Part shown: positions 24,053 through 51,149 of the stretch, in pieces | How the letters are laid out: each line of letters starts with the position of its first letter | Position numbering within the stretch: position 1 is the stretch's first letter | Assembly: GCF_020080045.1 (NCBI RefSeq) | Contig: NZ_CP083451.1 | Span: 4,265,001-4,329,000 of the forward strand | Direction of reading: 5' to 3' | Origin: Comamonas odontotermitis | GTDB taxonomy: Bacteria; Pseudomonadota; Gammaproteobacteria; Burkholderiales; Burkholderiaceae_C | Length of the DNA: 64,000 nt | Program-made: the position numbers and the translations under genes | The notes under the pieces: generated by a model | Seen by the model: the letters and a program-made list of their open reading frames with translations, nothing else | What the model was told of the DNA's origin: nothing | Database searches by the model: none

Positions 24053-24846
24053 CAGTGCTTGCCAATCAGAATGCGATCCAGGCCATAAACTTTGTCGAGC
24101 AGCAGCATCAAGCCCAGCGTGATGAACACGATCAGTGCCGAAACGGCAGCCATCATCGGGTCGAGCGACTCGGTGGCATACATGTACATGCGCACCGGCA
24201 AGGTGACCGTGCTGGGTGATATGACAAAGATCGACATCGTCAGCTCGTCAAAGCTGTTGATGAAAGCCAGCAGCCAGCCGCCGGTGATGCCCGGCAGGAT
24301 CATTGGCAGGGTGATGCGCTTGAACACGGTGGCATTGCTTGCCCCCAGCGAATATGCAGCCTGCTCGGCACTGCGGTCAAAGCCGATCAGCGCAGCCATC
24401 ACCAGGCGCATGGTGTAGGGCATCACCACCAGTGCGTGCGCAAAGATCAGCCAGCCAAAGCTGCCCTGCCCGCCCACCAGCGAGAACATGCGCAGCATGG
24501 CCACGCCCAGCACCAGGTGTGGAATGATCAGCGGCGAGAGAAACAGCGCCTGCAGCGCGCCGCGACCCGGAATCTCGTAGCGCACCAGCGCTATTGCAGC
24601 GGGTACCGCCAGGGCTGTGGAAATCGATGCCGCAGATACGGCCAGACCCAGGCTGTTCCAGAACGATTGCACGAAATCCGGATGGTGCAGCACCTGGTCG
24701 AACCAGCGCAGCGAGAAGCTGGTGGTAGGGATCGTCAGCGTTTCTTCCGGGGTGAACGCCACCAGGCAGACGATGACCAGCGGCGCCAGCATGAAGGTGA
24801 TGACCAGCGCGTTGAAGATGAGGGCAATGGGTCCGTTTTTTTGCAT
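24052..24846 (-). CDS. ABC transporter permease (PotC-like)
   Basis: 264 residues with six membrane helices. The permease EAA loop is EQAAYSLGASNATVFKRITL near residue 168, the contact for the ATPase. The N terminus has a membrane helix and then the FSLRWFDQVLHHPDFVQSFW NSL segment typical of PotC partners. It forms the inner-membrane channel with the PotB-like protein. Confidence 0.93.
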   Translation of the reverse strand: MQKNGPIALIFNALVITFMLAPLVIVCLVAFTPEETLTIPTTSFSLRWFDQVLHHPDFVQSFWNSLGLAVSAASISTALAVPAAIALVRYEIPGRGALQALFLSPLIIPHLVLGVAMLRMFSLVGGQGSFGWLIFAHALVVMPYTMRLVMAALIGFDRSAEQAAYSLGASNATVFKRITLPMILPGITGGWLLAFINSFDELTMSIFVISPSTVTLPVRMYMYATESLDPMMAAVSALIVFITLGLMLLLDKVYGLDRILIGKH

Positions 24847-41584: not shown

Positions 41585-42265
41585 ATGCGAATTCTGATTG
41601 CCGAAGACGACCAGGTGCTGGCCGACGGCCTGCTGCGCAGTCTGCGCAACTCGGGCGCTGTGGTGGACCACGTGGCCACTGGCACCGAAGCCGATGCCGC
41701 ACTGATGGCCAACAACGAGTTTGACCTGCTGATCCTCGACCTGGGCCTGCCCAAGATGCACGGGCTGGAAGTACTCAAAAGGCTGCGCGCGCGCGGATCT
41801 GCGATACCCGTGCTGATTCTCACCGCCGCCGAAAGCGTGGACGAGCGCGTACAAGGCCTTGATCTGGGGGCCGACGACTACATGGCCAAGCCCTTTGCGC
41901 TGTCGGAGCTGGAAGCGCGCGTGCGGGCTCTCACGCGCCGCAGCGCAGGCATGAGCACCACCCTGATCCAGCACGGACCGCTGGAATACGACCAGGCGGG
42001 GCGCGTCGCCACGCTGGAAGGCCGGATGCTGGAGTTGTCCGCGCGCGAGCTGGGCCTGCTGGAGGTGTTGCTGCAGCGCAGCGGCCGCCTCGTCAGCAAG
42101 GACCAGTTGGTCGAGCGCCTGTGTGAATGGGGAGAAGAAGTCAGCACCAATGCCATCGAGGTGTACATCCACCGCCTGCGCAAGAAAATCGAGAAGGGCC
42201 CGGTACGCATTGCCACCGTGCGCGGCCTGGGCTATTGCCTCGAAAAGATCCAGCCTGCGGCCTGA
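41585..42265 (+). CDS. OmpR/PhoB-type response regulator (TctD/QseB-like)
   Basis: 226 residues. The receiver has the acidic pair EDD at 7-9, phospho-acceptor Asp52 in LILDLGLPKMHG, and Lys102 in YMAKPF. The C-terminal winged-helix DNA-binding domain (about 128-222) ends with AIEVYIHRLRKKI and VRGLGYCLE. It is partnered with the kinase that starts 69 bases later. AGGAGA 8 bases before the ATG supports the start. Confidence 0.95.
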   Translation: MRILIAEDDQVLADGLLRSLRNSGAVVDHVATGTEADAALMANNEFDLLILDLGLPKMHGLEVLKRLRARGSAIPVLILTAAESVDERVQGLDLGADDYMAKPFALSELEARVRALTRRSAGMSTTLIQHGPLEYDQAGRVATLEGRMLELSARELGLLEVLLQRSGRLVSKDQLVERLCEWGEEVSTNAIEVYIHRLRKKIEKGPVRIATVRGLGYCLEKIQPAA

Positions 42266-42270
42266 CCATC

Positions 42271-42318
42271 ATTTCATAGCAGCCAGCGCTTTGTAGATGG
42301 GCGCTGACAGCACTTTAG
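42271..42318. repeat. Palindromic repeat between the regulator and kinase genes
   Basis: TTTCATAGCAGCCAGCGCTT, a short loop, then GGGCGCTGACAGCACTTT: imperfect inverted arms of the dispersed repeat family. It sits inside what should be one two-gene operon. Confidence 0.6.
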
Positions 42319-42333
42319 ACCACAAGGACTGCC

Positions 42334-43788
42334 TTGGCCCTGTTTCGCGGTGAGCAGCGTTCCCTGTTCGGTGAGATCCTCGACTGGATGCTCACCCCGC
42401 TGCTGCTGCTGTGGCCGGTGTCGCTCGCGCTGACCTGGCTGGTGGCGCAGAACCTGGCCAACAAGCCGTTCGACCGCGCGCTGGAGTACAACGCCCACGC
42501 TCTGGCACAGCTGGTGAGTGTGCATGGTGGGCAGACCTATTTCAATCTGCCCCAGCCCGCCAGCGAAATTCTGCGCGCCGATGACTCGGACGCCGTGTAC
42601 TACCAGGTAACGGCGCCCAATGGACGTTTTCTGGCTGGCGAATCGGAACTGCCCCCGCCCCAGGACGACCAGGAGCGCCCCGTCGGCCTGGTACAGCTGC
42701 GCGATGCCGAGTTGCGCGGCGTGGAAGTGCGAATCGCCTGGATCTGGGTGCGCCTGTCGCTGCCCGAGCCCAATCTGGCGCTGATCCAGGTCGCCGAGAC
42801 GCGCGAGAAACGCAGCGTGCTGGCCACCGAGATCATCAAAGGCGTGATGCTGCCGCAGTTCGTCATCCTGCCGCTGGCGGTGCTGCTGGTCTGGCTGGCA
42901 CTGGCGCGCGGCATCAAGCCGCTGCACCAACTGGAGGAGCGCATCCGCGCGCGCAAGCCCGATGACCTCTCGCCCATCCACCACAAGGATGTTCCGCTGG
43001 AAGTGGTGCCGCTGGTCGACTCAGTCAACGACCTGCTGGGGCGCCTGAACGACTCGCTGGCCACGCAAAAGCGCTTTCTGGCCGATGCCGCCCACCAGCT
43101 CAAGACGCCCCTGGCGGGGCTGCGCATGCAGGCCGAGATGGCCCAGCGCGCCGATGCCAACGCCACAGACCTGAAACTGTCGCTGCAGCAGATCGGGCGC
43201 TCGAGCATGCGTGCCACCCACACCGTCAATCAATTGCTCTCGCTCGCACGCGCCGAAGGCCCAGGCGCCCTGCTGCAGCGCACGCCCTGCAACATGGCAG
43301 AGATCGTGCTGGATGCCATGCACGACGGCATAGACCGTGCGCTGGCCAAGCACATCGACATGGGCTACGAAGGCATGCAGGTGGACGACCCGGAAGTCTG
43401 GGTCAACGGCAATGCCACCTTGCTGGGCGAGCTGGTACGCAACCTGCTGGACAACGCCATCAACTACACGCCCTCAGGCCCCCGTGCGCCAGGCATCATC
43501 AATGTGCGCCTGTTGGCCGACCCGTTTGGCCACGTGCTGGTGCTGCAGGTGGAAAACTCCGGCCCCGGCATTGCCGAGGAAGACCGTGAACACATCTTCC
43601 AGCCCTTCTACCGCGTGCTCGGCAGCGATGTCGATGGCTCCGGATTGGGCCTGCCCATCGTGCAGGAAATCGCGCGCCAGCACGGCGCCAGCGTCACCCT
43701 GGAAGACGCCTATCCCAAGCAGACGCAGCGCGGCGTGGTGTTCAGCGTGCGGCTGCCGACGACCCAGAAGCCAGACGCTGCTGCATGA
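42334..43788 (+). CDS. Sensor histidine kinase (TctE-like)
   Basis: 484 residues. Two membrane helices (about 16-42 and 168-190) enclose a periplasmic sensor region. After a HAMP-like linker, the H-box KRFLADAAHQLKTPLAGLRM has the phospho-accepting His254; the N-box ELVRNLLDNAINYTP, G1 ENSGPGIAEEDREHIFQPFY and G2 SGLGLPIVQEIARQHG follow. The start is a TTG at 42334, chosen because AAGGA lies 6 bases upstream and the downstream codons fit TctE-like N termini. It probably senses an organic acid, by analogy with TctE. Confidence 0.93.
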   Translation: MALFRGEQRSLFGEILDWMLTPLLLLWPVSLALTWLVAQNLANKPFDRALEYNAHALAQLVSVHGGQTYFNLPQPASEILRADDSDAVYYQVTAPNGRFLAGESELPPPQDDQERPVGLVQLRDAELRGVEVRIAWIWVRLSLPEPNLALIQVAETREKRSVLATEIIKGVMLPQFVILPLAVLLVWLALARGIKPLHQLEERIRARKPDDLSPIHHKDVPLEVVPLVDSVNDLLGRLNDSLATQKRFLADAAHQLKTPLAGLRMQAEMAQRADANATDLKLSLQQIGRSSMRATHTVNQLLSLARAEGPGALLQRTPCNMAEIVLDAMHDGIDRALAKHIDMGYEGMQVDDPEVWVNGNATLLGELVRNLLDNAINYTPSGPRAPGIINVRLLADPFGHVLVLQVENSGPGIAEEDREHIFQPFYRVLGSDVDGSGLGLPIVQEIARQHGASVTLEDAYPKQTQRGVVFSVRLPTTQKPDAAA

Positions 43789-43831: not shown

Positions 43832-44635
43832 TCAGGAGCAGGCCTGCAGGTCCTTGCCATCCATCACATGCCAGCTTTGCACGCGCTTCTTGGTGGCAGC
43901 ATCAACGCGTGGCAGGCGCAGGGTGTAATTGATGGTCTCGGGCCGGTCCACCACCACCTTGGCGCCGCTCACGCCCTTTTTGCCCATGGCGGCCAGGTGG
44001 CGTTCTGCGGCTTCCTCGGTGGAAAAACGCCCCAGAGAAATGCCAGGCTCCAGGCTCGCCAGACGGGCGCGGTCGGTGCTGATGTCCAGCGCGCGCAACT
44101 CTTCGCGGCGTTTGTCCAACGCATCCTGGCTGCTGAACTTGCCGACATAGACCATCCAACGGCCCGCAGAGGTGGTGGAGTCGAGCTTCCAGCTGCCTTC
44201 GGGCAACTTGGCCAGTTGCAGACGCAGCGCCTCCACCTGCTTGGCATCGAAGCTGCCTGCCACCAGGCATTCCCGTTTCTCTGGCTTTTCGGGCTTTTCG
44301 GGCTTTTCAGCAGGCTTCTCGGCCAGCTTGTCTGTCGATTTGTCCGCAGGCTTTTCTGCCGCTTTGTCGGGCTCAACTGCTGGCTTGCCAGTTGCTTCCG
44401 AGGCTGGGTTCACAGGCGCCTCAGCGGCAGGCGCCGCGCTCTGCACCTGTTTTTGCGCCTGCTCCATTTCCTCGCGCGTCATGATGCGCAGCGCTTCGGG
44501 ATTGACCTGCTGCTGCAGGCGCTCGGGCTCGGCCGGGTTTTCAGGCGCCCAGCCCAGGCTGCGCAGCATGCCGTGCGAAAACGCGTAGTAGCCCGCATTG
44601 GCCAGCAACAGTAGCACGATGGCAAAACGAATCAT
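43832..44635 (-). CDS. SPOR domain-containing protein
   Basis: 267 residues. One N-terminal membrane helix (IRFAIVLLLLANAGYYAFS), then a low-complexity linker with Pro-Glu-Lys repeats (about 90-120), then a C-terminal region with SPOR-like pattern (AGRWMVYVGKFSSQDALDKR near residue 162, and SLGRFSTEEAAERHLAAMGK near 200). SPOR domains bind denuded peptidoglycan at the division septum. It follows birA by 39 bases, in one operon with birA and the SET gene. Confidence 0.88.
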   Translation of the reverse strand: MIRFAIVLLLLANAGYYAFSHGMLRSLGWAPENPAEPERLQQQVNPEALRIMTREEMEQAQKQVQSAAPAAEAPVNPASEATGKPAVEPDKAAEKPADKSTDKLAEKPAEKPEKPEKPEKRECLVAGSFDAKQVEALRLQLAKLPEGSWKLDSTTSAGRWMVYVGKFSSQDALDKRREELRALDISTDRARLASLEPGISLGRFSTEEAAERHLAAMGKKGVSGAKVVVDRPETINYTLRLPRVDAATKKRVQSWHVMDGKDLQACS

Positions 44636-44674: not shown

Positions 44675-45553
44675 TCAGCCCTGCATCGGCGCCTGGGGGC
44701 GTACGCTGATCTCGGAACTGGTCACGCCCACCAGACCGGCGGCAGTCTGCACCTGCAGCGCACCATCTGCGGCCACGCCCTGCGCGACTCCCTGGGTGCC
44801 ATCGCTCAAGCTTACCGCACGGCCTGCCAATGCATCACGTGCAGCAAAACGCTGTTGCAGCGGCGCAAATCCCTGGCGGGCGAACGCCTGCACGGTAGCC
44901 ACCAGCGCGGGTACCACGGCGGCCAGCGCCTGCGGCGCATCCCAACGGCCGTCCACCATCTGCAAACTGCCGGGCACGGTGGAAAGGCCATCGCCCTGCG
45001 GCGCACGCACATTGATGCCGATGCCGATCACAACATAGCGCAACGCCTGTTGCGGATCAAAATACCCACCTGCGCTTGCTGTATGGGCACTGCCTGCTAT
45101 GAAACTTGCAGTTTCCACCAGAATGCCGGCGAGCTTGCGGTCGCCCGTCAGCCACAGGTCGTTGGGCCACTTGAGGCCGATTTTCGGCGCCTGCAGCGTG
45201 GCGTTGCCTGCAGCAGGCACCTGCGGCTGCAGGCTTTCCGCCACGCTCACGCCCACGGCCAACGACAGGCCGGACCAATCGCGCGGCGCGAGCGGCAGGC
45301 CCAGCGAGAACATCAGCGAATCGCCCACTTCGCTGCGCCAGGGGCGGCCCAGGCGGCCACGGCCTGCCGTCTGCTGCTCGGCCACCAGCAGGATCGGCTC
45401 CTGCCGGCCCTCACGCGCGCGGCGCATCAGCTCGGTGTTGGTGGAGTCGATGCTGGGCACGATCTCGATCGTGAAGCCCGGCAACTGTGGCTCTACAGCC
45501 TGCCAGATGGCCTCTGCAGGCCAACGGATGGGCTCCTGGCTGGCTGCGGTCAT
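44675..45553 (-). CDS. birA: Biotin--[acetyl-CoA-carboxylase] ligase
   Basis: 292 residues, the mono-functional form without the N-terminal DNA-binding domain of E. coli BirA, so it should not repress biotin genes. Motifs: SIDSTNTELMRRA near residue 34, the biotinyl-AMP loop AEQQTAGRGRLGRPWRS near 58, and LKWPNDLWLTGDRKLAGILV near 127 with the catalytic lysine. After LVETA an insertion of about 16 residues (SFIAGSAHTASAGGYF) is encoded by a sequence like the dispersed palindromic repeat. The ATG overlaps the SET gene stop (ATGA). Confidence 0.95.
   Translation of the reverse strand: MTAASQEPIRWPAEAIWQAVEPQLPGFTIEIVPSIDSTNTELMRRAREGRQEPILLVAEQQTAGRGRLGRPWRSEVGDSLMFSLGLPLAPRDWSGLSLAVGVSVAESLQPQVPAAGNATLQAPKIGLKWPNDLWLTGDRKLAGILVETASFIAGSAHTASAGGYFDPQQALRYVVIGIGINVRAPQGDGLSTVPGSLQMVDGRWDAPQALAAVVPALVATVQAFARQGFAPLQQRFAARDALAGRAVSLSDGTQGVAQGVAADGALQVQTAAGLVGVTSSEISVRPQAPMQG
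45059..45105. repeat. Palindromic-repeat derivative inside birA
   Basis: On the minus strand TTTCATAGCAGGCAGTGCC matches the repeat at 42273 in about 16 of its first 20 positions, and the far end CAAGCGCAGGTGGGTATTTT matches the arm of other copies in about 16 of 20. It is read in frame as a surface insertion of the ligase. Confidence 0.5.
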
Positions 45554-46242
45554 GCGCGGGTCTTTGCGGAAGTTCTGGCCTGTCTGGCCTTGGGTTTGGC
45601 CTTTGGCTTGGTTTCTGTTTTGGCTTTTGGCTTGGCCTTCGATTTTGGCTTCGGGTCTGCCTTGGCTTTGTTCTTGCGCTCAGCCTTGGCCTTCGCTGTG
45701 GTCTTGCCGCCTGTCTTGGGCTTCTGGCCAGGCTCGGCCAGGTCGCTGGCGGGGCCCTTGGGTTTCCAGCCCCGCTTGGGTGCCAGCATGGTGCCCCGGC
45801 AGTCCGCCGCGCCACAATGGCAGGCATAGTCGGCCTTCAGCTTGGCGGTGTAGCGCTCTTCGATGATGAGTCCGTAGTCGTAGCCCAGCTCCTCGCCAGC
45901 GCTGATATTGCGCAGCGCGCTGATGAAGATGCGATCCTCCACCTCTTCGGCAAAGCAGTTGGGATCGCAGCTGTGGTTGATCCAGCGGGCCGAGTTACCG
46001 CCATCGCCGCCATCGATCACGCGGTTGCCGTCGATCTGGAAGAAGAAGGTGTGGTTCGGGTGGGCTGGATCGTGCGGATGGCGGCGCTGGCTCTCCTCAT
46101 AGCTGATGACCTTGCCCGCGTATTCGACAATCACTTCGCCTTCTGCGATATCCTGCAGCGCAAAAACGCCCCTGCCGTGCACGCCGGAACGCCGTACCTG
46201 GATACGGCGGCCTGTTGAAAAATGGGGGACATTGCTCGGCAT
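45550..46242 (-). CDS. SET domain protein-lysine methyltransferase with lysine-rich tail
   Basis: 230 residues. The SET domain (about 12-130) has the opening RRSGVHGRGVFALQDIAEGE, the cofactor/pseudoknot motif ARWINHSCDPNC near residue 85 and ELGYDYGL near 118; a post-SET cysteine cluster ACHCGAADCRG near 140 completes a zinc site with the SCDPNC cysteine. The last 75 residues are an unfolded, highly basic Lys-Pro-Ala tail (KPKSKAKPKAKTETKPKAKP) like histone H1 tails, suitable for nucleic acid binding. Target unknown. It heads an operon with birA and the SPOR gene and is divergent from topB. Confidence 0.93.
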   Translation of the reverse strand: MPSNVPHFSTGRRIQVRRSGVHGRGVFALQDIAEGEVIVEYAGKVISYEESQRRHPHDPAHPNHTFFFQIDGNRVIDGGDGGNSARWINHSCDPNCFAEEVEDRIFISALRNISAGEELGYDYGLIIEERYTAKLKADYACHCGAADCRGTMLAPKRGWKPKGPASDLAEPGQKPKTGGKTTAKAKAERKNKAKADPKPKSKAKPKAKTETKPKAKPKARQARTSAKTRA

Positions 46243-46270
46243 GGGAATTTTTCTGCTACTTTAAAAATAA

Positions 46271-46301
46271 GCACATGCGCATGTGCGCGTACGTACATGC
46301 A
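46271..46301. other. 31-bp alternating purine-pyrimidine tract with a 16-bp palindrome
   Basis: GCACATGCGCATGTGC (46271-46286, perfect palindrome) continues as GCGTACGTACATGCA without a break in purine-pyrimidine alternation. A related CGCGCACATGCGCGTG follows at 46307-46322. Such tracts can flip to Z-DNA or extrude cruciforms under negative supercoiling. It lies between the divergent SET and topoisomerase III genes. Confidence 0.8.
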
Positions 46302-46402
46302 GGCGCCCGCGCACATGCGCGTGAAGCGTGCATTGTAAGAGCGTGCTCAGAGAGCCAGCAATTCACAGCGTTGGCAGACCCCAGATTGATGAGAGTGAAC
46401 CC

Positions 46403-49321
46403 ATGTCCAAGACCCTGGTCATTGCAGAAAAGCCGTCCGTTGCGCAAGACATCGTCCGCGCGTTGACGCCGGTGGCAGGCCAATTTGCCAAACACGACGA
46501 CTACTTTGAGTCGGACAGCTACATCGTCACGAGCGCGGTGGGTCACCTGGTGGAGATCCAGGCGCCGGAAGAATTCGATGTCAAGCGCGGCAAGTGGAGC
46601 TTTGCCCACCTGCCGGTGATCCCCCCCTATTTCGAGCTCAAGCCCGTCGACAAGACCAAGACGCGCCTCAATGCCGTGGTCAAGCTGGCCAAGCGCAAGG
46701 ATGTCACCGCCCTCATCAACGCCTGTGACGCGGGCCGCGAAGGGGAGTTGATCTTTCGCCTGATCGAGCAGTACGCCGGTGGTGCCAAGGGCGGCCTGGG
46801 CAAGCCCATCACGCGCCTGTGGCTGCAGTCGATGACGCCGCAGGCCATCCGCGAGGGTTTTGGCAAGCTGCGCACCGACAGCCAGATGCAGGGCCTGGCC
46901 AACGCAGCACGCAGCCGCTCCGAAGCCGACTGGCTGGTGGGCATCAACGGCACGCGTGCGATGACGGCGTTCAACTCGCGCGATGGCGGCTTCTTTCTGA
47001 CCACCGTGGGCCGCGTGCAGACCCCGACCCTGTCGCTGGTGGTGGAGCGCGAGGAAAAGATCCGCAAGTTCGTCAGCCGCGATTACTGGGAAATCCACGC
47101 CGAATTCGGTGCGCAGGCCGGCAACTACCCAGCCAAATGGTTCAACCCCGCCTGGAAGAAGAGCGATGACGCCGAGGCCAAGGCCGACCGTGTGTGGAGC
47201 CTGCAGGAGGCGCAGGCCATTGCCAACGCCGCACGTGGCAAGCCTGCCACCGTCACCGAAGAGAGCAAGCCCACCACACAGGCTTCGCCCTTGTTGTTCG
47301 ACCTGACCAGCCTGCAGCGTGAAGCCAACAGCAAGTTCGGCTTCTCTGCCAAGACGACGCTGGCCCTGGCCCAGGCCCTGTACGAAAGGCACAAGGCCCT
47401 GACCTACCCGCGTACCGATTCGCGCGCGCTGCCTGAGGACTACCTGCCTGTGGCGCGCCAGACCTTCGAGATGTTGGCACACAGCAGCATGCAGCAGCTC
47501 GCGCCTTTTGCGCAGCAGGCCATCGGAGCCAACTACATCCGGCCATCCAAGCGCATCTTCGACAACAGCAAGGTGTCCGATCACTTTGCCATCATCCCGA
47601 CCACACAGGCTCCTGGAGCACTTTCCGACGCCGAGCACAAGCTCTATACGCTGGTAGTGCGCCGCTTCATGGCGGTGTTCTTCCCCAGCGCCGAGTACCA
47701 GGTCACCACCCGTATCAGCCAGGTCGAGCAGCACCACTTCAAGACCGAGGGCAAGGTGCTGGTCAAACCCGGCTGGCTGGCGATCTACGGCAAGGAAGCC
47801 GCCCACGAAGTGGAAGACGCCAAGGACGGCGACAAGGGCCAGAACCTGGTGCCGGTGCAGCCCGGAGAGAAGCCGCTCGCCGACCCCGTCGATCCGAAGG
47901 TCCTCAAGACCAAGCCGCCTGCCCGCTACTCCGAAGCGACCCTGCTGGGTGCCATGGAGAGCGCCGGCAAGCAGATCGACGACGACGAGCTGCGCGAAGC
48001 CATGCAGGAAAAGGGCCTGGGCACGCCAGCCACGCGCGCGGCCATCATCGAAGGCCTGTTGACCGAAAAATACATGCTGCGCGAAGGCCGCGAGCTGATC
48101 CCCACAGCCAAGGCCTTCCAGTTGATGACCCTGCTGCGCGGCCTGGAGGTGGAAGAGCTTTCGCGCGCCGACCTCACTGGCGAATGGGAATACAAGCTGG
48201 CGCAGATGGAAAAGGGCCAGCTCTCGCGCGAAGCCTTCATGGCCGAGATTCAGTCCATGACCGAGCGCCTGGTCAAGAAGGCCAAGGAATACGACCGCGA
48301 CACCATTCCCGGCGACTACGCCACCTTGTCCGCACCCTGCCCGAACTGCGGCGGCGTCGTTAAGGAAAACTACCGCCGCTATGCCTGTACCGGCATCCAC
48401 GGCAATGGCGAAGGCTGCGGCTTCTCGTTCACCAAGTCGCCCGCAGGCCGCACTTTCGAGACTGCAGAGGCCGACCAGTTGCTGCGCGACCGCAAGCTGG
48501 GACCGCTGGACGGTTTCCGCTCCAAGGCAGGCTGGCCGTTTGCCGCCGAAGTGGCCATCGTGCGCGACGAGGACAACAACAACTTCAAGTTCGAGTTCGT
48601 GTTTGAAGACAACAAATCGGACGAAGAATCGGGCGAATTGGTCGATTTTGGCAGCCAGAACGCGCTGGGCGCCTGCCCCAAGTGCGGCGCGCCGGTGTTC
48701 GAGCATGGCGCCAACTACGTGTGCAGCAAGGCCGTACCCACAGCCCAGCAGCCCACGCCCAGCTGCGATTTCAAGAGCGGCCAGATCATCCTGCAGCAAC
48801 CGATCGAGCGCGACCAGATGGCCAAGCTGCTGGCCACCGGCAAGACCGACCTGCTGGACAAGTTCATCTCCAACCGCACGCGCCGCAGCTTCAAGGCCTT
48901 CCTGGCCTGGGACAAGGAAGCCGGCAAGGTGAACTTCGAGTTCGAGCCGCGCGAAGGCAAGTTCCCCGCGCGCAAGACAGCGGCCGCCAAGACGGCCACC
49001 AAGACCGCAGGCAAGACGACGGGTGCAAAGGCCACCAAGGCCACGAAAACGGCAGAGAAGACTGCAACCAAGGCCCCCCGCAAGACCACCGCCGCATCGG
49101 GCAAGACGCCAAGCGCAGCCCTGGCCGCCGTGATCGGCAGCGCGCCGGTAGCTCGCCCCGAGGCCGTCAAGAAGATGTGGGAGTACATCAAGGCCCACAA
49201 TTTGCAGGATCCCAAGGACAAGCGCACCATCCTCGCCGACGACAAACTGCGCCCCGTGTTCGGCAAGGACAGCATCGGCATGTTCGAGCTGGCTGGCGTT
49301 CTGGGCCAGCATCTGGGTTGA
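46403..49321 (+). CDS. topB: DNA topoisomerase III with C-terminal SWIB domain
   Basis: 972 residues against about 650 for E. coli TopB. The TOPRIM domain starts TLVIAEKPSVAQDI and includes NACDAGREGELIFRLIEQY near residue 107; the catalytic tyrosine is Tyr335 in ALTYPRTDSRALP. Cys4 zinc-ribbon-like segments follow (CPNCGG near 643, CPKCGAP near 757). A Lys-Thr-Ala-rich linker (about 855-905) leads to a SWIB/MDM2 domain (RPEAVKKMWEYIKAHNLQDP to the end, about 917-972). It relaxes and decatenates DNA; the tail probably adds protein or DNA contacts. The following gene overlaps its stop. Confidence 0.96.
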   Translation: MSKTLVIAEKPSVAQDIVRALTPVAGQFAKHDDYFESDSYIVTSAVGHLVEIQAPEEFDVKRGKWSFAHLPVIPPYFELKPVDKTKTRLNAVVKLAKRKDVTALINACDAGREGELIFRLIEQYAGGAKGGLGKPITRLWLQSMTPQAIREGFGKLRTDSQMQGLANAARSRSEADWLVGINGTRAMTAFNSRDGGFFLTTVGRVQTPTLSLVVEREEKIRKFVSRDYWEIHAEFGAQAGNYPAKWFNPAWKKSDDAEAKADRVWSLQEAQAIANAARGKPATVTEESKPTTQASPLLFDLTSLQREANSKFGFSAKTTLALAQALYERHKALTYPRTDSRALPEDYLPVARQTFEMLAHSSMQQLAPFAQQAIGANYIRPSKRIFDNSKVSDHFAIIPTTQAPGALSDAEHKLYTLVVRRFMAVFFPSAEYQVTTRISQVEQHHFKTEGKVLVKPGWLAIYGKEAAHEVEDAKDGDKGQNLVPVQPGEKPLADPVDPKVLKTKPPARYSEATLLGAMESAGKQIDDDELREAMQEKGLGTPATRAAIIEGLLTEKYMLREGRELIPTAKAFQLMTLLRGLEVEELSRADLTGEWEYKLAQMEKGQLSREAFMAEIQSMTERLVKKAKEYDRDTIPGDYATLSAPCPNCGGVVKENYRRYACTGIHGNGEGCGFSFTKSPAGRTFETAEADQLLRDRKLGPLDGFRSKAGWPFAAEVAIVRDEDNNNFKFEFVFEDNKSDEESGELVDFGSQNALGACPKCGAPVFEHGANYVCSKAVPTAQQPTPSCDFKSGQIILQQPIERDQMAKLLATGKTDLLDKFISNRTRRSFKAFLAWDKEAGKVNFEFEPREGKFPARKTAAAKTATKTAGKTTGAKATKATKTAEKTATKAPRKTTAASGKTPSAALAAVIGSAPVARPEAVKKMWEYIKAHNLQDPKDKRTILADDKLRPVFGKDSIGMFELAGVLGQHLG

Positions 49322-50772
49322 TGCGGCCGATTGTGCGAAAGAAGGCCCTCTTCGCTGCCGCCGCTGTCTGCGCCATCGGCGCGGCGATCGCCGTCGCGGC
49401 CCTGTACCCACGCGGAGATGTGCCTGCGCACATCGCTGTGTTTACGCCCGACGGCATCAACCCAGAACTCATCGGCAAGGTAGCAGGCGCCCATATCAAC
49501 GTCTTTGAGCCAGGCCTGCTGGAGGGGCGGCTTCAGAAAGTGGTGGGCAGCAACACCCGGGTGGACCTGGACCTGGGGCCGGTGCTCAACCGTATCCGGC
49601 CTCCCGCGCAACTCACTACCGAATATGGCATGGATGCGCAGCGGCAGCGCAAGCTGCTCGCACCGCTTGCGTCCAACAAGCTGCGCGACATCCCTCCCGA
49701 TCCGGAAGCCATCGCCATCCTGCGGCCCTACATGGAGCTGATCCAGCGCTACCAGGCCCAGGTGGCGACGGTCTTTGTTGCAGACGAGCCTTATCTCAAC
49801 GGCATCTCCAAGGCAGAACTGGAGCGCACGGCAAAGACGCTGCGCATGCTGTTTGCCGAGTACCAGATCCAGAATGTGAAGCTGGGGGTGATCTTTGCCA
49901 GCGGCATGGTCAATGCCGACTTTGCCAGAATGGTGGATCGTGAGGCCAGCCGGTACGTGCGCAGCATCGACCAGTACTATCAGGCCTTGAGCGAGAAGGC
50001 CCAGGCCGGCACTGCCGCGGCGGACGAACTGCAATGGCTGCAGCACATCGAGAAACACCGCCTCACCACCTATGACAGCGCTGGCAACATGTATCTGGCC
50101 GGTGGCCTGCCCCAAGGGTATGACCTCTTCGGGTTCGACTTCTACCTGTCCACCGTGTTGCAGGACGCGCTCTACGAAAACATGCTGCCCGAGCTGCAAA
50201 AGCACGCTCCGCGCGGAGCCTGCGAGATCGAAAAGTTCAGCAAGGTATCCGAACTGCGTGCGCAGCTCTCCTTCTACCAGGATGGCCCCATCGTCCAGTC
50301 CGCTGCGGGCAACGGCAATGCGTCCATCGATAGCGCCCGGGACAAGGACCGCCACCTGCTGGACCAGTTGTACACATGCCGCATGGCCGCTGCCACGAAC
50401 ATGCTGCGCAAGGAAATCGCCAAAGCAAATAGCAAGGCCAAGATCATCCTGGTCACCGAGTCCAGCAACAACGGCGTGCTGGAATTCGACGCCAGACAGA
50501 ACATCGAGCCGGGCCAGCCTCAGTTGCTGATCGAGTCTCGTGTGCTGGACGAAGTCAAGCGCGCCCTCACCTTCTATGACAAGGAGCGCAAGCGCGGCGA
50601 TATCGAAGCCTTGGAGTTCTTCACGTTTGACAACACCTACGACAAATCCATTCATCTGAACATAGGAGGCTTCGTGGACATGCCCTCCGTCAAGGCGCAT
50701 ATCTTCAAGGCCTCGGAGCAGATGATGTGCCGCAGCCATCCCAAACCCCAGGCTGCACTGGCCTGCCAATAG
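49321..50772 (+). CDS. Exported protein of unknown function, TIM-barrel-hydrolase-like
   Basis: 483 residues. The start ATG overlaps the topB stop codon (TGATG), so translation is probably coupled. A basic N terminus and hydrophobic segment (KALFAAAAVCAIGAAIAVAA) form a signal or anchor. The rest looks like an alpha/beta barrel with TVFVADEPYLNGISKAEL near residue 152, QGYDLFGFDFYLSTVLQ near 265 and IILVTESSNNGVLEFDA near 375; the acidic DEP and TES positions recall glycoside-hydrolase active sites, but I recognise no family. One cannot assign a substrate. Confidence 0.72.
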   Translation: MRPIVRKKALFAAAAVCAIGAAIAVAALYPRGDVPAHIAVFTPDGINPELIGKVAGAHINVFEPGLLEGRLQKVVGSNTRVDLDLGPVLNRIRPPAQLTTEYGMDAQRQRKLLAPLASNKLRDIPPDPEAIAILRPYMELIQRYQAQVATVFVADEPYLNGISKAELERTAKTLRMLFAEYQIQNVKLGVIFASGMVNADFARMVDREASRYVRSIDQYYQALSEKAQAGTAAADELQWLQHIEKHRLTTYDSAGNMYLAGGLPQGYDLFGFDFYLSTVLQDALYENMLPELQKHAPRGACEIEKFSKVSELRAQLSFYQDGPIVQSAAGNGNASIDSARDKDRHLLDQLYTCRMAAATNMLRKEIAKANSKAKIILVTESSNNGVLEFDARQNIEPGQPQLLIESRVLDEVKRALTFYDKERKRGDIEALEFFTFDNTYDKSIHLNIGGFVDMPSVKAHIFKASEQMMCRSHPKPQAALACQ

Positions 50773-50795: not shown

Positions 50796-51149
50796 ATGTA
50801 CATTCGCCGCACCCACCGCATCCTTCTGGGCCTGGCCATTGCACTGGCGATGGTTACTGCCATCGTTGCCTGGCGCGGCCCGGCAGTGCTGGACGAAGCC
50901 CGGGACACAGCGAGCGCCCTGCTCAAGAAGGCATCCAGTCCGCCGCCGCCCTCCGCAGATGAGCAGAAACGCAGTCAGACGCGCCGTACAGCTGATGCGC
51001 AAGGCAAGCCTGCAGCTGTGCCGGCGCAGCCACGCAAATGCATCCAGAACGGCAAGACCATCTATACCGATGCCCCATGCCCTGCGGGCAGCGAAGAGCA
51101 GGTGGTGCCAGAGAATCTATCGGTCGTACCAGGGAATGCGGCGCGCTGA
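50796..51149 (+). CDS. DUF4124-like small membrane-anchored protein
   Basis: 117 residues. An N-terminal helix (ILLGLAIALAMVTAIVAW) is followed by a Pro-rich linker and a short C-terminal domain RKCIQNGKTIYTDAPCPAGS, which matches the DUF4124 pattern (CxxxG-x-YTDxPC) with its two cysteines. It starts 23 bases after the previous gene and is probably cotranscribed from topB. Confidence 0.8.
   Translation: MYIRRTHRILLGLAIALAMVTAIVAWRGPAVLDEARDTASALLKKASSPPPPSADEQKRSQTRRTADAQGKPAAVPAQPRKCIQNGKTIYTDAPCPAGSEEQVVPENLSVVPGNAAR

Follow-up and report, generated by a model that had tools for sequence, protein, structure and literature searches.

A conserved Z-DNA-prone tract between divergent SET and topB genes marks a candidate DNA-topology module in Burkholderiales

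Introduction

In Comamonas odontotermitis, the gene for a SET-domain protein and topB, which encodes a DNA topoisomerase III, stand head to head with 160 bp separating their start codons. The locus lies in the 64,000-nucleotide stretch of chromosome analysed here (the window), and it raises the question of what joins a putative protein methyltransferase to a topoisomerase. SET proteins and SWIB-topoisomerase fusions co-occur in Chlamydia. The initial annotation saw a chromatin-like module in this pair and proposed that the SET enzyme methylates the Lys-rich tail of TopB or its own tail. Pfam and the coordinates bear out the arrangement that it described, namely a SET protein with a Lys-Pro-Ala tail opposite a TopB carrying a Lys/Thr/Ala linker and a SWIB domain (Table 1).

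Table 1. Coordinates of the features at the SET–topB locus, numbered from the first nucleotide of the window
Feature	Position	Strand	Basis
SPOR-domain protein, third gene on the SET strand	43832..44635	minus	Pfam; matched in 62/80 fetched loci
birA-like biotin-protein ligase, start overlapping the SET end	44675..45553	minus	ORF list, Pfam, relatives
SET-domain protein (putative protein-lysine methyltransferase) of 230 aa	45550..46242	minus	Pfam SET and structure matches
Lys/Pro/Ala-rich C-terminal SET tail, residues 150–230; labile among relatives	45553..45795	minus	Sequence reading
SET domain proper, residues 23–124	45871..46176	minus	Pfam SET
Candidate topB promoter: TACTTT, a -10-like box oriented towards the tract	46257..46262	plus	Consensus T.TG.TA..TTGAAT, 71 loci
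Z-DNA-prone tract: 31 bp of perfect purine-pyrimidine alternation, the genome's longest	46271..46301		Run scan
Further alternating run of 16 bp, whose calculated B-Z threshold is the window's lowest by a very slight difference	46308..46323		Run scan and energies
Candidate SET promoter: TACAAT, a -10-like box oriented towards the tract from its other end	46332..46337	minus	Present in 132/138 intergenics
topB: SWIB-bearing DNA topoisomerase III of 972 aa; no other type IA topoisomerase matched in the genome	46403..49321	plus	Pfam, NCBIfam
Lys/Thr/Ala linker of TopB, residues 848–902	48944..49108	plus	Read from sequence
SWIB domain of TopB, residues 903–971	49109..49315	plus	Pfam

Conservation of the gene neighbourhood

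The neighbourhood was compared across 150 genomes of the family. Among the matches listed, SET and topB are adjacent and divergent in 131 of the 137 genomes in which both genes were placed, far exceeding chance, and the neighbourhood is therefore not confined to this strain. Among the same matches, four genomes have the two genes on split contigs, two have them far apart, three have no TopB and ten have no SET. The split-contig genomes include one with the topB start at the edge of the SET contig (G131) and one with SET at a contig start (G065). The distant pairs are those of G079, 8 kb apart, and G017, where a SET piece also precedes topB. Nine of the ten genomes without a listed SET have no SET match (one of them, G137, has a SET start at a contig edge), and the tenth, G043, is matched by SET with no listed place. 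For detailed comparison, 80 of the 131 adjacent-divergent loci were fetched. A second sample of 80 named loci comprises the best 80 of 584, which are therefore close relatives.

SET is tied to birA as closely as to topB: birA adjoins SET on the same strand in all 80 fetched family loci and is matched in all 80 named loci. The gene 3' of topB was matched in just one of 80 loci, with 600 bp fetched there, so synteny decays on the topB side. Rfam and tRNA scans of the window gave no matches.

The SET protein

The Pfam SET model matches the protein with 91.1 bits (cut-off 22.4), and this is the single SET match of the whole genome. The closest solved structures are those of KMT2A/MLL1 (E = 1.3e-27, or 5.1e-36 with a profile). 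Sets of 23 and 43 sequences from relatives show little or no variation in the NHSC and ELxYDY motifs and at post-SET cysteines 141, 143 and 148; we take these to be the SAM/catalytic motifs and the Zn ligands, respectively. By sequence, the protein is thus a putative KMT-type protein-lysine methyltransferase. Its AlphaFold model, with a mean pLDDT of 60.8, is a low-confidence prediction. The likeness to KMT2/MLL-type methyltransferases consists of the SET domain, the post-SET cysteines and the best structure matches, whereas the present enzyme is bacterial. Bacterial SET methyltransferases likewise include chlamydial NUE and cpnSET and the Legionella/Burkholderia effectors LegAS4 and BtSET, as described in PMC3980110. 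Unlike these, SET here keeps a constant chromosomal position beside topB and birA. The LegAS4 effector model NF043024 scores 44.7 bits against a cut-off of 550. BurB, a Burkholderia SET enzyme, methylates free methionine according to PMC12542666. No entry of that name appears among the best 60 matches of either of two solved-structure searches with SET.

It is very improbable that the locus is a Chlamydia-like chromatin module in which SET methylates an H1-like nucleoid protein. The KMT-like character of SET would fit such a role, and cpnSET methylates Hc1 (PMC3980110); against it, the search for an HC2 histone-like substrate found no match above cut-off in the genome (best 12.2 versus 40 bits), and TopB is a topoisomerase III that scores only 206.4 bits, against a cut-off of 868, with the topoisomerase I/SWI fusion model NF004966. 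The latter is the type to which the initial annotation referred for Chlamydia.

TopB and its Lys-rich tail

The listed open reading frame of topB begins with GTG at 46328; the ATG at 46403, common to relatives, was taken as the start. Pfam recognizes Topoisom_bac, Toprim_Crpt and SWIB domains (SWIB 92.6 bits, cut-off 25). The protein matches NCBIfam NF011313 (DNA topoisomerase III) over its full length with 1988.7 bits (cut-off 1088), so a curated family already exists for TopBs with SWIB. As a member of NF011313/PRK14724, DNA topoisomerase III (with SWIB), the protein itself is no different. In the literature consulted, neither its standing as sole type IA enzyme nor its tract-bearing upstream region is described. 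SWIB is absent from 36 of the 77 complete family TopBs, all of which are still paired with SET, and it was rejected as the reason for the pairing. In the TopB tree, the SWIB fusion forms nearly one clade (44 tips, with three SWIB-less ones within).

Methylation of the Lys-rich TopB tail or linker by SET, or of the SET tail itself, so as to tune DNA topology, now seems unlikely. Among the fetched loci, every SWIB-less TopB (36, with 3–16 Lys) and every measured SWIB-bearing one (40, with 9–17 Lys) has Lys residues at its C-terminus, and with the stable SET–topB neighbourhood this would be consistent with such a reaction. Furthermore, the Lys-rich C-terminal repeats of actinobacterial TopA, said to be histone H1-like, give processivity, and their modification is speculated upon in PMC7398561. 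The likeness to TopB is a Lys-rich C-terminal stretch; the topoisomerase subfamily is different, and the stretch here ends the protein or leads into SWIB. However, the number of Lys residues is independent of SET outside the family, where the tails measured in 47 of 50 genomes have a median of 10 Lys in 19 SET-bearing and 8 in 28 SET-less genomes (p = 0.30). SET adjoins topB in family f6 though the TopB tail has 0–1 Lys; it stands beside Lys-poor tails in G154, G203 and G247, and Lys-rich tails are retained without SET in G026, G038 and G073. The tail is a general feature of this TopB, and co-variation lends no support to tail methylation as a conserved function. The SET tail reaches at least 30 aa in 13 of 41 SWIB-bearing loci versus none of 36 SWIB-less loci among those fetched from the family. 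Since this tail is labile, its automethylation cannot be a conserved function either.

Type IA topoisomerases and SET across the order

A search of the present genome (G000) for type IA topoisomerases gave TopB and no other (one candidate, one match); within the family, the full search for these enzymes covered G000, G128 and G114. Across 110 genomes of the order, a TopA-type enzyme occurs in 56 and a long TopB in 53, with no overlap and with neither in one genome. TopA and long TopB therefore substitute for each other in this sample. The NCBIfam labels were as expected for all six TopA-type and all three TopB-type proteins checked, and one genome of the order carries an additional divergent TopA. 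The replacement of TopA by long TopB in 53 of the 110 genomes departs from the statement, in PMC7140829, that topoisomerase I occurs in all bacteria.

The distribution of SET follows this division. SET orthologues were found in 20 of the 53 long-TopB genomes versus one of the 56 TopA genomes (p = 8.5e-7); counting any SET match, the numbers are 22 of 53 and 5 of 56. Because the samples contain related genomes, the p-values overstate independence. For SET homologues at the level of the class, long TopB was present in none of the eight genomes checked.

SET was placed in 15 of 21 positive genomes, among the matches listed. Outside the family, 4 of 24 SET-bearing genomes, which belong to two families (f6 and f32), have it after gyrB, and in three genomes of a single f6 genus SET and topB are convergent. 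The two genes are at most 20 kb apart in 7 of 17 extra-family genomes, representing 4 of 11 genera, where the distances in G180 and G224 take one-contig genomes as circular. The majority of these SET loci have no topology-gene neighbour. Flanking genes were labelled in part (11 loci gave 20 frames, of which 11 matched Pfam), and the labels place SETs of other families beside PHB depolymerase, ILVD, malonyl-CoA decarboxylase or LysR-type genes. The gyrB and topB neighbourhoods and the bias towards long-TopB genomes sustain the link to DNA topology suggested by the initial annotation, but not TopB-tail methylation as its form.

These other neighbours, together with the use of free methionine by BurB (PMC12542666), are what would be expected if topB, SET, birA and the SPOR gene were merely frozen in synteny and SET acted elsewhere, for example on a translation factor or a small molecule. 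We consider this rather doubtful, since SET follows gyrB in two other families, recurs near topB in several extra-family genera and is found mostly in genomes with TopB as sole type IA enzyme, and since the gene after topB is not retained.

The constant association with birA, whose start overlaps the SET end, could alternatively place SET in biotin metabolism with BirA, modifying a biotin carrier protein or BirA itself, with topB a mere divergent neighbour. Consistent with this, one genome outside the family (G206) has bioB 3' of SET on the same strand and bioA between topB and SET. In the other fetched extra-family loci, no bioB, bioA or birA match lies beside SET, except one weak bioA-like match. 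This absence, together with the gyrB neighbours of SET, makes such a role quite improbable. We know of no methylation of the carrier's lysine, which also counts against it.

A conserved alternating tract between the two genes

The intergenic region contains the longest alternating purine-pyrimidine run in the 4.83 Mb genome. In 1,307,877 bp from 80 relatives, all 59 alternating runs of at least 20 bp sit just upstream of SET. For the tract counts, 13 of the 80 fetched loci (called intergenic below 40 nt) and 2 of the 80 named loci (topB absent from the contig) were dropped, and removal of identical sequences reduced 145 intergenics to 138. The longest run in these has a median of 25 bp and a mean of 25.4 bp, compared with 9.5 bp in shuffles; a long alternating run thus exists beyond chance and is conserved. 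RY patterns are described as generally suppressed in beta-proteobacteria in PMC4060949. A run of 20 bp is missing from 44 of the 138 intergenics and one of 16 bp from 17. There is no long run in SET-less G026 or in the separated loci of G079 and G140. The tract is absent from other families with TopB alone (20 genomes, with runs of 8 at the median and 15 at most), so it is not required for having TopB alone.

Substitutions in the tract comprise 95 transitions and 19 transversions, and those in the flanks 172 and 318. In a strict set, the tract has 19 transitions and no transversions versus 25 and 22 (p = 1e-4); the transversion test falls short of significance in the subset of more than 92% identity (p = 0.15). 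The pattern indicates that selection acts on the alternation itself: the tract sequence is not conserved, and transversions are suppressed.

The tract is flanked, as sequence, by the two inward-facing -10-like boxes, for which a promoter role is a candidate. Canonical sigma-70 promoters were dropped after a scan of the region found none, and -35 boxes show no enrichment on the SET side of the intergenics. The strong conservation of the boxes is compatible with a tract conserved for a different reason, as an operator for some protein or as a structured or double-stranded overlapping 5' leader RNA, Z-DNA being incidental. The tract of the window also includes a palindrome of 16 bp, after which the minus strand is T-rich, and RNA hairpins are in slight excess (z = -0.25). 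We regard this reading as unlikely overall, because palindromes are no more frequent than in shuffles that preserve alternation (z = -0.05, 106 tracts) and because alternation is maintained where sequence is not, with transversions suppressed. From the two z values, pairing is not the conserved property, and an RNA hairpin or palindrome in that capacity is disfavoured.

A possible torsion sensor

Whether Z-DNA plays any physiological part in bacteria has long been asked. The conserved Z-DNA-prone stretch in the shared control region of topB and SET suggests a built-in sensor of DNA twist. The reading that we tentatively favour is that the locus is a DNA-topology or supercoiling-homeostasis module, in which the shared region may sense torsion by a B-Z transition and SET is co-controlled. 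As the sole type IA enzyme found, TopB would presumably be the main relaxer of negative supercoils. Both genes diverge from a compact shared region with the -10-like boxes flanking the tract. The calculated B-Z threshold of the tract is a superhelical density of -0.042 in the window, with a median of -0.040 in relatives; in the window it is not clearly lower than that of another site, the difference being marginal (0.0420 versus 0.0421). With rising negative superhelicity, the tract may flip from B- to Z-DNA, which for 31 bp would absorb approximately 5–6 turns (calculated from helical repeats of 10.5 and 12 bp). This flip could alter initiation at topB and SET in either direction, and homeostasis would call for a rise of topB. 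SET would then modify a topology or nucleoid protein, with TopB and GyrB as candidates in view of the topB and gyrB neighbourhoods.

A further-reaching version is possible though less probable: a B-Z transition in one promoter region would be the torsion sensor controlling the only type IA topoisomerase of a large family, together with a co-regulated lysine methyltransferase tuning the topology machinery, and would represent bacterial regulatory Z-DNA kept by selection on alternation. Since the one conserved tract, the longest in the genome, lies upstream of the sole type IA topoisomerase, a role of Z-DNA in bacteria becomes directly testable here. The ties of SET to topB, gyrB and birA likewise yield a short substrate list for a methyltransferase present in most genomes of the family.

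The topA and gyrase promoters respond to supercoiling, for which a homeostasis model is given in PMC9825172. The proposed likeness to these promoters is a topoisomerase gene governed by superhelicity. In contrast to them, the candidate element here is a Z-DNA-prone tract between opposed -10-like boxes, held in common with the SET gene.

SET and topB form a divergent pair conserved across the family

In the window, the gene for a SET-domain protein (SET), a putative protein-lysine methyltransferase, and the gene for DNA topoisomerase III (TopB), here ending in a SWIB domain, are divergent, with start codons 160 bp apart. This bears out the head-to-head arrangement described in the initial annotation. 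SET shares 94% identity in its best segment with the protein of Comamonas sp. B21-038, and the solved structures that match it best are those of human KMT2A/MLL1 (E 1.3e-27; 5.1e-36 with a 43-sequence profile). Among relatives, the residues of NHSC, of ELxYDY, and the post-SET cysteines vary little or not at all; their roles concern SAM, catalysis, and Zn. TopB matches NF011313, an already curated family of SWIB-bearing topoisomerase III, from end to end. A separate stand-alone SWIB protein (118-aa frame) is encoded at C1:1541243-1541533 of the same genome (4.83 Mb, 3 contigs), and a SWIB match is present in all but two of 150 genomes (148) in the family Burkholderiaceae_C.

Features of the window
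Feature	Position	Strand	Remarks
SET	46242..45550	minus	Pfam SET, 91.1 bits
topB	46403..49321	plus	ATG start; full-length member of NF011313
Alternating run, 31 bp	46271-46301		perfect; within the 160-bp SET–topB gap
Alternating run, 16 bp	46308-46323		within the same gap
Alternating run, 20 bp	24176-24195		only other run of at least 16 bp in the window
Palindrome, 16 bp	46271-46286	minus	left part of the 31-bp run; TTATTTTT comes next on the SET strand
Open frames after topB	49318-50772; 50796-51149		neither Pfam nor NCBIfam gave a match
Response regulator and sensor kinase	41585-43788		beyond the SPOR gene; best matches TctD and QseC, both below cut-off

The initial annotation had named persistence beyond one strain as a check on this neighborhood, and the pairing proved to be a family trait. 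A SET-domain match is present in 141 of the 150 genomes, and SET and topB are adjacent and divergent in 131 of the 137 genomes in which both places, joined for this count, were among the matches listed. Of these 131 loci, 80 were fetched: a birA homolog adjoins SET on the same strand in all 80, and a SPOR gene was matched in 62. The gene 3' of topB (the frame at 49318-50772), on which side 600 bp were taken, was matched in only 1 of the 80. In a second set, the best 80 of 584 relatives, birA was matched throughout and topB in 78; the contigs of the other two end before reaching topB. In SET-less genomes G024, G026, G038, and G073, birA directly abuts topB. SET was matched at a further place, outside the pair, in the family genomes G007, G028, G067, G074, G080, G087, G096, G129, G133, and G144.

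TopB is the sole type IA topoisomerase found in the genome

The only type IA candidate in the genome, and its only match to Pfam Topoisom_bac, is the TopB of the window. Across 110 genomes of the order Burkholderiales, a TopA-type protein (at least 408 bits) was found in 56 and a long TopB (E ≤1e-277) in 53, with zero overlap; the single genome with neither is 85% complete (G239). NCBIfam labels were as expected for all six TopA-type and all three long-TopB proteins checked. The search for all type IA topoisomerases within the family covered the window genome, G128, and G114. Strict replacement is broken by G114, in which an extra divergent TopA (495.7 bits vs. 456.4) lies on the 105-kb third contig (L340) and the long TopB on the first. 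Nine further genomes carry additional topoisomerase-domain proteins. According to a published account (PMC7140829), every bacterium has topoisomerase I, and transcription-induced supercoils can also be relaxed by topoisomerase III, with an efficiency below that of topoisomerase I.

An alternating tract marks the topB junction

The shared intergenic region contains a perfectly alternating purine–pyrimidine (RY), Z-DNA-prone tract. The genome has six places with a run containing ten RY steps, of which this tract is the longest; the 20-bp run of the window is another. Among the best 80 of 584 relatives (1,307,877 bp), 59 runs of at least 20 bp were found at 58 loci, all 59 just upstream of SET. 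In 67 fetched family loci, 45 runs of this length fell within the 11,171 intergenic bases, and the remaining 420,960 bases, most of them coding, contained zero. Over 138 distinct intergenic regions, the longest run has a median of 25 bp (at least 20 bp in 94 and at least 16 bp in 121) and a mean of 25.4 vs. 9.5 in dinucleotide shuffles, and in 110 regions at most 1 of 100 shuffles equalled or exceeded it. A 28-bp run is present somewhere in 21 of 60 family genomes; in 13 of the 15 with places among the matches listed, it lies directly upstream of topB, and the other places in those 15 number five, simple repeats among them. An unbroken tract of 63 bp, the longest seen, precedes SET in a MAG of Comamonas (L248:9918-9980). 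Since RY patterns are under-represented in beta-proteobacteria, according to PMC4060949, one conserved tract is the more notable.

Of these SET-less genomes, G024 (21 bp) and G073 (17 bp) keep the tract, G038 has a short one (11), and G026 lacks it (6). The run is also short where topB and SET have separated (11 in G079, 7 in G140), and the topB genes of other families have no such tract in front of them (median run 8, longest 15 in 20 fetched genomes; 7–11 in seven more). Its median is 21 with SWIB and 24.5 without. The tract is therefore a trait of this family's divergent topB junction and not of SWIB or SET alone.

Substitutions preserve the alternation

Across 49 independent pairs, 95 transitions and 19 transversions were counted in the tract, and 172 and 318 in its flanks. 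The bias recurs in 15 ungapped pairs above 80% identity (24 and 3 vs. 48 and 49, p = 1.6e-4) and in 12 pairs above 88% (19 and 0 vs. 25 and 22, p = 1e-4), and is not significant in nine pairs above 92% (5 and 0 vs. 16 and 10). Defining the tract from one pair member is expected to hide no more than roughly half of the transversions, a bias too small to account for the result by this reasoning. The comparison thus identifies purine–pyrimidine alternation as the conserved feature. RNA hairpins and palindromes hardly exceed alternation-preserving shuffles (mean z -0.25 and -0.05; 106 tracts). The palindrome with TTATTTTT scored as terminator-like (1 found vs. 0.7 expected), and attenuation of SET there is possible. 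With published B–Z energies (PMC3024258), and with assumed values for junction twist, stiffness, and domain size, the calculated threshold of superhelical density in a 5-kb domain is -0.040 (median) in relatives and -0.042 in the window, with other window sites close.

On the SET strand, a TACAAT-like box lies on the side of the tract away from SET in 132 of 138 intergenic regions, and a TAnnnT box precedes it on the topB strand in 110 (consensus T.TG.TA..TTGAAT in 71). Both are present in 107, spaced 36–90 bp apart, and resemble -10 boxes facing one another over the tract. The -35 hexamer shows no enrichment for SET (2.76 vs. 2.64) and a weak one for topB (3.01 vs. 2.63), and a promoter scan found zero promoters; the boxes are therefore regarded as candidate promoters only by inference.

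The sole-TopB genotype and the conserved tract in the shared region are the strongest new facts. Jointly, they might constitute a torsion-sensing control of DNA topology. Among the matches listed from the open-licence literature, neither a Z-DNA-prone topB promoter nor a SET–topB pair was found for these bacteria.

Lysine-rich tails and the partners of SET

The initial annotation had proposed that SET methylates the lysine-rich tail of TopB or its own. SWIB is carried by 41 of 77 complete TopBs, nearly one clade on the TopB tree. These proteins have a Lys/Ala-rich linker of 49–83 aa with 9–17 Lys (40 of 41 measured), longer than the short basic C-terminal tail of SWIB-less TopBs (17–56 aa, 3–16 Lys). 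Genomes outside the family have this kind of tail whether or not they have SET: in a comparison of 47 of the 50 long-TopB genomes there, the median Lys count is 10 where any SET match is present (19 genomes) vs. 8 where there is none (28 genomes; p = 0.30). In genus g146 of family f6, SET adjoins topB convergently, and the TopB tail has 0–1 Lys. A basic SET tail of at least 30 aa is found in 13 of 41 SWIB-bearing loci vs. 0 of 36 SWIB-less loci, and its state changed at least eight times on the TopB tree. Given similar tails with or without SET, the Lys-poor tail of g146, and the labile SET tail, methylation of the TopB tail may be possible, yet the comparison does not call for it, nor for that of SET's own tail. 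The TopB tail of SET-less G024 (L162) is Arg-rich with zero Lys and differs from those of the SET-less G026, G038, and G073.

The topology theme itself is plausible, but the particular target proposed for methylation lacks support, and a link to biotin competes for SET. In the order, SET orthologs (at least 120 bits) occur in 20 of 53 long-TopB genomes vs. 1 of 56 TopA genomes (p = 8.5e-7, uncorrected for kinship), or 22 vs. 5 when any SET match is counted. Among 17 long-TopB genomes outside the family, seven, from 4 of 11 genera, have SET no farther than 20 kb from topB. One of these seven, G206 (L046, L157), has bioB directly 3' of SET and bioA between topB and SET; together with birA, the constant neighbor of SET across the family, this makes a role for SET in biotin metabolism a live rival. 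Counting toward topology, SET follows gyrB on the same strand, with 47–80 nt between match ends, in 4 of 24 SET-bearing genomes outside the family (G154 and G247 of f6; G180 and G224 of family f32); the contig of G203 starts too late to reveal any gyrB before SET. At other outside loci, SET is flanked by PHB depolymerase, ILVD, malonyl-CoA decarboxylase, LysR, and further unrelated kinds. In f6 (G247), topB is preceded by dprA on the same strand.
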